62,665 nucleotides of DNA, taken from contig NZ_JAGQBW010000018.1 of NCBI RefSeq assembly GCF_024345835.1, positions 1-62,665 on the forward strand, in the 5' to 3' direction. Both the position numbers and the translations under genes were made by a program. Source of the stretch: Synechococcus sp. HJ21-Hayes (GTDB lineage Bacteria > Cyanobacteriota > Cyanobacteriia > PCC-6307 > Cyanobiaceae). Below are positions 11,216 through 14,638 of this stretch, in pieces. How positions within the stretch are numbered: position 1 is the first letter of the stretch; each line of letters opens with the position of its first letter. The notes below the pieces were generated by a model. It ran no database searches, was not told the DNA's origin, and worked only from the letters and a program-made list of their open reading frames with translations.

Positions 11216-11343
11216 GGGTGTGGCAGCGGGCGCGCAACAGCATGTTGCAGGGTCTCGGCAGAGCCCTGTTGGGCCAAGCCGTTCAGGGCTGGGCAAGGTT
11301 CATAATGGGCGCCACGTTGCAGTGGGCTCCCCAGCCGCCCCGT

Positions 11344-11892
11344 ATGACCCAGATCCCAGCGCCCTCGTCCAGCGGTGATGTTCCCGGAATGGGTCGTCGG
11401 CAGTTCATGAATCTGCTGACCTTCGGCACGGTCACAGGCGTGGCCCTGGGTGCCCTCTACCCGGTGGTGAACTACTTCATCCCCCCCAAGGCCGCCGGTG
11501 GTGGTGGTGGCGTGACCGCCAAGGATGAGCTGGGCAACAACGTCACCGCCAGCGGCTGGCTCGGCAGCCACAAGGAAGGCGACCGCAGCCTGGTGCAGGG
11601 CCTCAAGGGCGATCCCACCTATCTGATCGTCGAGGGCAGCGATGCCATCGGCAGCTACGGCATCAACGCCATCTGCACCCACCTGGGCTGCGTGGTGCCC
11701 TGGAACGATGGGGCCAACAAGTTCATGTGCCCCTGCCACGGCTCCCAGTACGACGCAACCGGCAAGGTGGTACGCGGTCCCGCTCCCCTCTCCCTGGCCC
11801 TAGCCCACGTCTCGGTGGAGAACGACAACGTGTTCCTGAGCCAGTGGACTGAAACAGATTTCCGCACCGGCGAGAAGCCCTGGTGGGCCTGA
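11344..11892 (+). CDS. petC: Cytochrome b6f Rieske iron-sulfur subunit PetC
   Basis: 182 residues. The N-terminus has [18 protein letters not shown], an uncleaved twin-arginine-type anchor, then a Gly-rich hinge ([14 protein letters not shown]). The Rieske domain has the two 2Fe-2S motifs CTHLGC and CPCHGSQYD and the family C-terminus RTGEKPWWA. PetC carries electrons from plastoquinol to cytochrome f. The start is fixed by the normal family N-terminus; upstream codons in the open frame have no family match. petA follows after about 50 bases, the conserved petCA operon. Confidence 0.98.
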
Positions 11893-11942: not shown

Positions 11943-12875
11943 ATGCGTCGCTCCTTCTCCCTGCTGCTGAGTTCGCTCCTCGCCCTCGGCGCCCTGTTCG
12001 TGGCTCCCCAGGCAAGCTGGGCCTACCCCTTCTGGGCGCAGCAGAACTACGCCACCCCCCGGGAAGCCACCGGCAAGTTGGCCTGCGCCAACTGCCACCT
12101 GGCCAAGAAGCCCACCCAGGTGGAAGTGCCCCAGGCGGTCTTCCCCGACGAGGTGTTCAAAGTTGAGGTAAAGATCCCCTACGACACCTCTGTTCAGCAG
12201 GTTGCTGGTGACGGCAGTGCCACCGGGCTCAATGTGGGCGCCGTGGTGATGCTGCCCGATGGTTTCAAACTCGCACCGGCCGATCGCCTCAGCGAGGAGC
12301 TCAAGGAGGAAACCGCCGGTGTCTACGTGACCCAGTGGAGCGACAACGACCCCAACATCCTGCTGGTGGGCCCCCTCCCGGGTGACCAGCACCAGACGAT
12401 CACCTTCCCGATCCTCGCTCCCGATCCCGCAACCGACAGCAACATCCACTTCGGCAAGTACCAGCTACACGTGGGCGGCAACCGTGGCCGCGGCCAGGTG
12501 TATCCCACTGGCGAGAAGAGCAACAACGGCGTATTCAATGCCTCCGTTGCCGGCAGCGTGGAAGCGATCAACGCCGGTGAGAACGGCGGATCCGTGGTGG
12601 TGATCAAAACCGCCGACGGCACCAGCGTGAATGAGGCCATCCCCGCCGGCCCCACCGTGACCGCCAGCGTGGGACAGGCCGTGGTGGTGGGCGAAGCCCT
12701 CACCAACGATCCCAACGTGGGTGGGTTCGGCCAGCTCGATGCTGAGGTGGTGCTCCAGAACCCTGTGCGTATCTACGGGATGCTCGCCTTCTTCGCCGCC
12801 GTTGCCCTAGCCCAGATCATGCTGGTACTGAAGAAGAGGCAGGTAGAAAAGGTGCAGGCTGCCGAAGGCGTCTGA
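11943..12875 (+). CDS. petA: Apocytochrome f (PetA)
   Basis: 310 residues. A signal peptide ([16 protein letters not shown]..., cleaved after SWA) leaves a mature N-terminus [17 protein letters not shown], whose Tyr amino group ligates heme. The c-type heme site CANCH follows. Further family features are [20 protein letters not shown] and the C-terminal membrane anchor before [10 protein letters not shown]. The subunit accepts electrons from the Rieske protein and passes them to plastocyanin or cytochrome c6. It is co-transcribed with petC. The stop overlaps the lgt start by one base. Confidence 0.98.
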
Positions 12876-13750
12876 TGCATCTCGCTGTGTTCACCTCACC
12901 GGGGCCCTTGCTGTTTCAGCTGGGCCCTTTTTCTCTGCGCTGGTATGGCTTACTGATCGCCGTTGCGGTGTTGCTGGGCCTGATGCTCGCCACGCGCCTG
13001 GGCAGACAACGGGGCATCGAGCCGGCGATGATCGCCGACCTATTGCCGATCCTGGTGCTGGCGGCCGTGATTGGTGCTCGCGTGTACTACGTGGTGTTCG
13101 AGTGGCGGCAATACCAGTTGAACTGGCTCGATGCCCTGGCGATCTGGAGGGGAGGGATAGCCATCCACGGCGCCCTGCTCGGCGGCAGCCTCGCGGTGAT
13201 TCTCTATTGCCGCTGGCGCAAGCTCGCCTTCTGGAACCTGCTCGATGTGCTGGTGCCATCGGTAGCCCTTGGCCAGGCCATCGGCCGCTGGGGCAACTTC
13301 TTCAACTCCGAGGCCTTCGGTCTTCCCACTGATCTGCCCTGGAAACTCACCATTCCATTCGCCAATCGGCCCATTCAGTTCCTGGACCAAACCACGTTCC
13401 ACCCCACATTTCTCTACGAGTCGTTGTGGAATCTGGGGGTGGTGATCCTGCTGTTGGTGTTGTTCCAGCGGGGCCTGAAGGGCCAGCTGCCCCTGCCGGC
13501 GGGAGCCCTCAGTTGCTTCTACCTGCTCACTTACAGCACCGGGCGGCTGTGGATTGAGGGGTTACGCATCGATCCTCTCTGCCTGGCCGGCGCACCTCCC
13601 TTCTGTGACGGTGGGTTGCGCATGGCACAGCTGGTGAGCCTGGTGTTGATGGCCGCCGCAGGATTCGGCCTTTACTGGCTGTATGTCCGTCAGCGGGCTC
13701 TGCCCGATCCGAGCGGCATCAACCTGCCTTCCTCCGGCTCCCCCACTTGA
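12875..13750 (+). CDS. lgt: Prolipoprotein diacylglyceryl transferase
   Basis: 291 residues with about seven membrane helices. The signatures are [29 protein letters not shown]-like [40 protein letters not shown] and [11 protein letters not shown]. The enzyme adds diacylglycerol to the lipobox cysteine of preprolipoproteins; several probable lipoproteins are encoded in this window. The ATG overlaps the petA stop (TGATG). Codons 10-20 contain a terminator-like hairpin with a T-run, which could reduce transcription into this gene relative to petCA. Confidence 0.96.
12902..12932 (+). terminator. Terminator-like hairpin inside the 5' end of lgt, just after petA
   Basis: GGGCCC-TT-GCTG-TTT-CAGC-T-GGGCCC followed by TTTTT forms a six-pair GC stem, a small internal loop, a four-pair upper stem, a three-base loop and a U5 tract. 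It begins 27 bases after the petA stop and lies wholly within lgt codons. The geometry fits an intrinsic terminator or attenuator. The repeated Gly-Pro in Lgt might produce it by chance, so function is inferred. Confidence 0.5.
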
Positions 13751-14553
13751 ACAACGACCTCACCACAGCAACCACCGCCAAGGTCTGGGTCGTGGGGGCT
13801 GGCCCTGGAGCCCCAGATCTACTCACCATCCGGGCCCTACGGGCGATCGAACAGGCCGAGGTGTTGATCTGGACCGATTCCCTGGTGAGCCCGCAGCTGG
13901 CCGCCCTGGCTCCGTCCGCCTGTGAGCGCATTCGCACCAGCACCCTCACTTTGGAGGAGGTGATGGAGCTGATGCTGGATCGCGCCAGGGCCGGTAAGCG
14001 GGTAGTGCGCCTCCACGATGGCGATACCTGCCTCTACAGCGCCCTCAATGAACAACTCTGCCGGCTGCTGGATGCCGACATCACTGTGGAGGTGGTGCCC
14101 GGGCTCAGCGCCTACCAGGCCACCGCGGCTGCCCTGAGCAGTGAACTCACCATTCCCGGCCTGGTGCAGACCATCGTGCTTAGCCGTGCTGGTGGACGCA
14201 CAGGGTTGCCGGAGAACGAATCGCTCGAGCGGCTGGCGGCCCTGCAGGCCTCCCTGTGCCTCTACCTGAGTGCGCGCCACGTGGAGCAGGTGCAGGCCGA
14301 GCTACTGCGGCACTACCCAGCCGACACCCCCGTGGCGATCGGCTATCGCGTCAGCTGGCCCGACCAGTGGCTCACGGTGGTGCCCCTGAGCGAAATGGCT
14401 CAGGTGAGCCAGGAACGGGACCTCATCCGCACCACCCTGTACGTGGTGAGTCCGGCGTTGGCGGCCCCAGGAGAGGCACGATCCAAGCTGTATTCAGCCA
14501 GCCATCACCACCTGTTCCGCGGCGGGGCGGAGGTGGGGCCCACGATGTTTTAA
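13747..14553 (+). CDS. cobM: Precorrin-4 C11-methyltransferase
   Basis: 268 residues starting at TTG, which overlaps the lgt stop by 4 bases. The tetrapyrrole methylase fold is clear: [15 protein letters not shown] (SAM loop), [43 protein letters not shown] and, near the end, [15 protein letters not shown]. The CobM/CbiF subgroup methylates C11 in corrin-ring synthesis with S-adenosylmethionine. It sits at the end of petC-petA-lgt-cobM and is followed by tRNA-Val. No other corrin-ring gene is adjacent; a CobT-like protein is encoded 24 kb away. Confidence 0.92.
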
Positions 14554-14566
14554 GCTCTTGGGGTGC

Positions 14567-14638
<72 letters not shown>

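Follow-up and report, generated by a model that had tools for sequence, protein, structure and literature searches.

The window analysed here, a 62,665-nucleotide stretch of DNA from Synechococcus sp. HJ21-Hayes (contig NZ_JAGQBW010000018.1), contains genes for two subunits of the cytochrome b6f complex that are followed by lgt without any intergenic space. The gene order in the region is tatC, petC, petA, lgt and cobM, followed by a tRNA gene, with names assigned via NCBIfam models. On the plus strand, petC, encoding the Rieske subunit of cytochrome b6f, occupies positions 11344–11892 (NF045928/NF010001, over the cut-off on 11218–11889); its ATG at 11344 was read by eye, and the mechanically listed open reading frame (ORF) begins upstream, at 11218. 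It is followed on the same strand by petA for cytochrome f (11943–12875; NF002736, 510.4 bits with a cut-off of 500), lgt for prolipoprotein diacylglyceryl transferase (12875–13750; TIGR00544, 247.2 bits with a cut-off of 118.9) and cobM for precorrin-4 C11-methyltransferase (13747–14553; TIGR01465, 291.3 bits with a cut-off of 259.65), the latter overlapping the lgt stop codon. The petA stop codon TGA (12873–12875) and the lgt start codon ATG (12875–12877) have one base in common (TGATG). Transcription arriving from petC-petA would reach cobM by read-through only. The run of genes from petC to cobM leads straight into the tRNA gene (14567–14638, plus strand, 64 bits), which begins 14 bases past the cobM stop codon. 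An initial annotation of this DNA had pointed to a hairpin with the geometry of a terminator at 12902–12932, inside lgt and just past petA. The sequence proved to be as described, and the reading as a terminator is supported by the comparative evidence presented below: the hairpin embedded in lgt probably serves as an intrinsic terminator that ends part of the petC-petA transcripts.

The element (12902–12932, plus strand) spans lgt codons 10–19. Its GC-rich hairpin (12902–12927, codons 10–18) consists of an outer 6-bp stem, in which GGGCCC at 12902–12907 pairs with GGGCCC at 12922–12927, and an inner 4-bp stem (GCTG/CAGC) that is closed by a TTT loop at 12914–12916. The two stems are separated by an asymmetric 2x1 internal loop, where TT (12908–12909) faces a single T (12921). 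Five T follow at 12928–12932, then CTC, such that the U-tract TTTTTCTC (12928–12935, plus strand, 6 T in 8 positions) covers the end of Pro18, Phe19 as TTT, and Ser20. The stem starts at 12902, with 26 bases between it and the petA stop codon, and ends 52 nt past that stop codon; counted from the A of the lgt start codon, the hairpin begins 27 nt downstream. RNAfold predicts −17.3 kcal/mol for the 26 nt of the hairpin and −19.5 kcal/mol for a 37-nt segment, which adds a G12901·U12928 pair. Of the features expected of an intrinsic terminator, a stable GC-rich hairpin is present at the window site (z = −4.04 for the 37-mer, with the caveat that z is only −0.45 and the energy unremarkable within a context of 101 nt), the U-tract right after the stem is present in the window and lacking in some relatives, and the site lies a short distance downstream of a transcribed gene's stop codon. 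No family of Rfam 15 reaches its gathering score at the hairpin, the sole match being RF02654 (MicL) with 12.2 bits versus 56 and an E value of 4.1. We also weighed a later lgt start codon, which would place the hairpin in untranslated sequence, and dismissed it because lgt genes without an upstream petA encode the SPGP...RWYG segment too.

Terminator-like sites were ranked by a score that combines constants of d'Aubenton Carafa's discriminant with our own T-only tail sum; it serves to order sites, and no published cut-off applies to it. The hairpin, whose stem carries the 2x1 internal loop, was missed by a simple scanner that returned 8 hits where 7.3 were expected from shuffling. With a scorer tolerating internal loops, it takes rank 2 among the 439 terminator-like sites on both strands of the window. 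When 462 kb of the 2.94 Mb genome were covered (the window plus 20 stretches of at most 20 kb each), it ranked 20th among the 50 sites scoring above 0. As many as 19 of the 25 sites scoring above 20 are intergenic even though mechanically called ORFs cover 94% of the sequence, and we conclude from this that the scorer picks out gene ends. Three of the 25 lie in opposite-strand ORFs and another three, the lgt hairpin included, in same-strand ORFs. Since most high-scoring sites are intergenic, the lgt hairpin is unusual in being intragenic. The other high-scoring sites of the genome are commonly found 45–94 nt past a stop codon, some of them farther away. Two high-scoring terminator-like sites on the minus strand (L272, position 8361, and L263, position 2916) fall within the first 25 bases of same-strand mechanically called ORFs; these may be embedded terminators or misplaced ORF starts. 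An identical palindromic hairpin of 18 bases, with T-tracts on either strand, occurs within the first 150 bases of three contigs of this genome (L259, L262 and L263); it may be a repeat that interrupts the assembly.

Sequence comparison indicates that the element is spread through a family comprising Synechococcus, Cyanobium, Vulcanococcus and Prochlorococcus, whose loci were mostly taken from the best-scoring matches, with distant members under-sampled. Comparison of the hairpin and the TTT codon with the lgt genes of relatives supports the initial annotation. All 25 congeneric genomes, the window's own included, keep the hairpin, with energies from −18.7 to −23.9 kcal/mol and scores from 13.0 to 31.8, and loss of stem and U-tract by synonymous changes, which was looked for in these close relatives as a refutation, was not seen. 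Phe19 is encoded by TTT in 24 of 24 and Phe14 in 22 of 24 aligned members of the genus, compared with 109 of 340 for all lgt Phe codons. Among representatives that are rich in GC at third codon positions (GC3), Phe19 is TTT in 20 of 25, versus 9 of 80 for the other Pro-Phe contexts in lgt and petA. A Fisher test against the other lgt Phe codons gives 4e-8 when kinship is ignored. These figures indicate selection for TTT at Phe19, the codon that contributes to the U-tract.

petA is located upstream of lgt in all 150 family loci sampled, where the distance from the petA stop codon to the lgt Trp23 codon ranges from 58 to 172 nt. Together with two loci of another family (L134 and L154), these make up 152 petA-adjacent loci; L156, with petA 371 nt away, was assigned neither to this group nor to the petA-less one. 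Between the petA stop codon and Trp23, a score of at least 0 was obtained for 80 of the 152 loci (25 of 25 in the genus and 55 of 127 outside), with stems ending 46–161 nt past the petA stop codon, and 72 score below 0. Of 756 control stretches matched in length and drawn from petA and lgt at these loci, none reached this score, nor did any of the 24 lgt loci for which the kilobase of sequence retrieved lacks petA. A looser criterion (−10 kcal/mol or lower plus 4 T in 8 positions) selects 128 of the 152 targets and was rejected as a discriminator, because 300 of the 756 controls pass as well. As every family locus sampled has petA upstream, an effect of petA is inseparable from descent by these counts. 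Five sampled loci without the hairpin (L134, L154, L156, L029 and L140) have an intergenic terminator or another lgt hairpin. In L134 and L154, an intergenic terminator-like hairpin ends 50–51 nt past petA and is followed by TTTGTATTT, and in L156 such a hairpin is found between the genes at +59 from petA, followed by six T. L029 and L140 encode another peptide at lgt codons 9–19, and their lgt codons 7–17 instead form a hairpin of 13 bp with TTTTTG behind it, which ends 55 nt past petA, at about the distance of the window's hairpin. Of 5000 synonymous draws each, 0 (L029) and 2 (L140) are as stable; here, the terminator has apparently moved to other lgt codons. Across these five loci, elements resembling a terminator thus appear again downstream of petA with unrelated sequences, in two cases within lgt. 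In the Prochlorococcus-like group g40 (L143–L153), petA is adjacent, but neither the hairpin nor a substitute was found in any of the 11 loci.

If the hairpin is a partial terminator, RNA polymerase that has moved past petA would transcribe the GC-rich hairpin and next the U-tract, some complexes would release their RNA about 55–60 nt past the petA stop codon, the released petCA mRNA would carry a structured 3' end, and the remaining complexes would read on into lgt-cobM. Termination would have to be incomplete, since lgt transcripts starting at an upstream promoter need to cross the hairpin. The use of the element would be a high output of cytochrome b6f combined with a low output of Lgt and CobM. 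We infer this from codon bias, which is stronger in petA than in lgt: in the GC3-rich representatives, TTT accounts for 23 of 327 Phe codons in petA versus 133 of 475 in lgt. The same DNA seems to have two roles, coding for part of Lgt and terminating the transcript of the gene in front of it. The hairpin could also work without termination, if a petC-petA-lgt-cobM transcript were cut or trimmed and the hairpin then shielded the 3' end of the petCA mRNA, so that petCA outlived the lgt part. The stem is indeed kept more widely than the U-tract: many stems of −20 kcal/mol score below 0, and strong stems with poor tails occur at several loci (L113, L119, L054 and L084). A precedent exists in the cip-cel operon of Ruminiclostridium cellulolyticum, where stem-loops are reported to set processing and mRNA ratios (PMC10311766). 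Protection of a 3' end, however, needs no U-tract, yet the TTT of Phe19 is selected, and stabilising hairpins without a U-tract were largely missing from the transcript ends of S. elongatus (PMC13289151). We therefore regard mere protection as improbable.

Instead of serving as a terminator for petCA, the hairpin might act on lgt itself, slowing the first rounds of translation or tuning synthesis or membrane insertion of Lgt, regardless of petA. Its position within the first 20 codons would suit such a role, as would the finding that 7 of the 24 lgt loci without petA (L155, L161, L162, L163, L172, L175 and L176) form a hairpin in this part of lgt that no more than 5% of synonymous draws equal in stability. 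For these seven, however, the most favourable of six windows was taken, and not one of the 24 petA-less loci attains a score of 0. Moreover, the distance between the petA stop codon and Trp23 varies so much (58–172 nt) that the hairpin keeps no constant spacing from the lgt start, the hairpin has shifted to other codons in L029 and L140, and a U-tract would be superfluous. As the explanation of the element, an own role in lgt is therefore very unlikely, but the seven petA-less loci leave some room for such a role. The cyanobacterial lgt genes of L161, L162, L163 and L172, which have no petA upstream, form a hairpin of at least 9 bp over the same Gly-Pro motif and have no U-tract.

For the reading as a partial terminator, it matters how much of the structure is dictated by the Lgt protein. 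Gly-Pro pairs (GGN-CCN with GGN-CCN) and the Leu...Gln combination (CTN with CAR) pair via their coding letters, and the initial annotation had considered that the Gly-Pro codons may contribute by chance. This holds for part of the structure: protein sequence and codon usage together lead to a mean of about −10 to −11 kcal/mol, versus an average of −18 kcal/mol for the real sequences. Synonymous draws based on the genes' own codon usage showed for the lgt gene in the window that 339–384 of 20,000 fold as well and 27–239 of 20,000 carry 6 or more T among the eight tail bases, while stem and tail occurred together in 1 of 20,000 for each of three codon-usage tables. Across 58 representatives with less than 80% nucleotide identity, selected from 136 loci (L031, with its lgt cut short, was dropped), windows from lgt codons 7–10 have mean z values of −2.0 to −2.1, the extreme of the gene, in a region that was chosen for testing after the hairpin had been seen; all 260 lgt windows give a mean z of −0.19 with a standard deviation of 0.35. 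In 44 of 55 family representatives, at most 5% of the draws are as stable as the real sequence, and 11 of 55 exhibit no synonymous excess at the hairpin window. Excess stability is best seen in genomes poor in GC at third positions, such as L130 (GC3 0.35; −21.4 kcal/mol versus −8.2 expected, with another peptide), L028 (GC3 0.22; −16.4 versus −4.5 kcal/mol) and L131 (−16.1 versus −6.7 kcal/mol, despite one missing codon); other low-GC members of the family gave a mixed picture. All in all, the draws indicate that codon choice adds much more to the hairpin than the Lgt motif alone. That the hairpin is a chance by-product of the Lgt peptide in a GC-rich genome, as the pairing of coding letters and the energies already reached by the draws might suggest, is hardly credible in view of the single draw combining stem and tail, the extreme position among the 260 windows and the stems kept in L130 and L028 at low GC3.

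The pairing itself was also assessed by covariation. At least two registers occur in the family, along with mixtures of them: in one, codons 12 and 13 pair with codons 16 and 15, respectively, and in the other, codon 12 pairs with codon 15. Because of this variety, pairs were counted for named structures. In 57 aligned segments, 55 of them distinct, 78.2% of the cells of a 12-bp register pair and the covariation score is 0.230 versus at most 0.144 for slid controls; columns 13/27 of this register show CG, GC, GU, UG and AU. In a subset of 27 sequences, the first register pairs in 81.8% and scores 0.257, versus at most 0.152 for slid partners. The second register, with 0.121, fails against controls slid by −3, +1 and +3 (0.139, 0.126 and 0.212) and was set aside as evidence. 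A single common fold for the family failed too, the RNAalifold consensus being weak at −1.07 kcal/mol for 27 sequences. For these two reasons, we take covariation as supporting evidence only. Across 55 loci, G·U pairs make up 48 of 588 on the plus strand versus 11 of 543 on the opposite strand, and the mean z is −2.37 versus −1.88, respectively, which favours the plus strand as the functional one. A terminator on the opposite strand was rejected, as no U-tract follows the stem there and the G·U pairs favour the plus strand.

Given the TGATG overlap and the start of the hairpin 27 nt into lgt, an attenuator controlled by translation is possible. In its full form, this would be a dual code, in which the first 20 codons of lgt constitute the petCA terminator, ribosomes passing from petA to lgt over the TGATG melt the hairpin and act as anti-terminators, and translation of lgt sets the extent of read-through into lgt-cobM. 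We consider the dual code rather unlikely; if true, it would represent an intrinsic polarity switch in a phylum that, to our knowledge, has no Rho. How most cyanobacterial transcripts end remains open because of this lack of Rho, as far as we know, and because only 22% of the transcription units of S. elongatus, discussed next, have been assigned a canonical intrinsic terminator.

In S. elongatus PCC 7942, intrinsic terminators have been mapped by Rend-seq, and it is this work that arrived at the share of 22%; stronger U-tracts went along with less read-through, and two terminators proved functional in vitro, where they were stimulated by NusA (PMC13289151). Intrinsic terminators and 3' ends inside ORFs are already known (PMC13289151, PMC10319736, PMC7815308). 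What appears to be new is that the terminator of one gene would reside in the conserved coding sequence of the next and be kept family-wide via codon choice. Among the open-licence papers that our searches listed, we found no report of such a case and no title or displayed abstract describing a terminator between petA and lgt or within lgt. A terminator written in the codons of the following gene would belong to a class missed by predictors that are restricted to intergenic DNA. Confirmation would reveal a way for compact genomes to position a strongly expressed photosynthesis gene immediately ahead of genes with weak expression, and would mean that synonymous sites in the gene for a conserved enzyme experience selection for terminating the transcript of a different gene.

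The lgt hairpin resembles the canonical terminators of S. elongatus in that a GC-rich hairpin is directly followed by a U-tract, and the window site passes the sequence criteria applied there (at least 4 U in 8 positions and an energy below −10 kcal/mol) (PMC13289151). The two differ in their basis, as the lgt hairpin is known here from sequence alone and the S. elongatus terminators from mapped 3' ends. They also differ in location: the TransTermHP scan was confined to DNA between the stop codon of one gene and the start codon of the following one (PMC13289151), whereas the lgt hairpin sits within the following gene, where it specifies conserved residues. Transcripts that end within ORFs, some of them at terminator-like hairpins, have been reported for Escherichia coli (PMC7815308) and Borrelia burgdorferi (PMC10319736), where the discussion centres on premature termination of the very gene in which they lie. 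Unlike these cases, the lgt hairpin would serve the upstream gene, and codon choice keeps it family-wide. The cip-cel operon of R. cellulolyticum offers a further parallel, since a hairpin between its genes reportedly leads to unequal transcript amounts (PMC10311766); unlike the cip-cel hairpin, the lgt hairpin is placed within coding sequence and is followed by a U-tract that is under selection.
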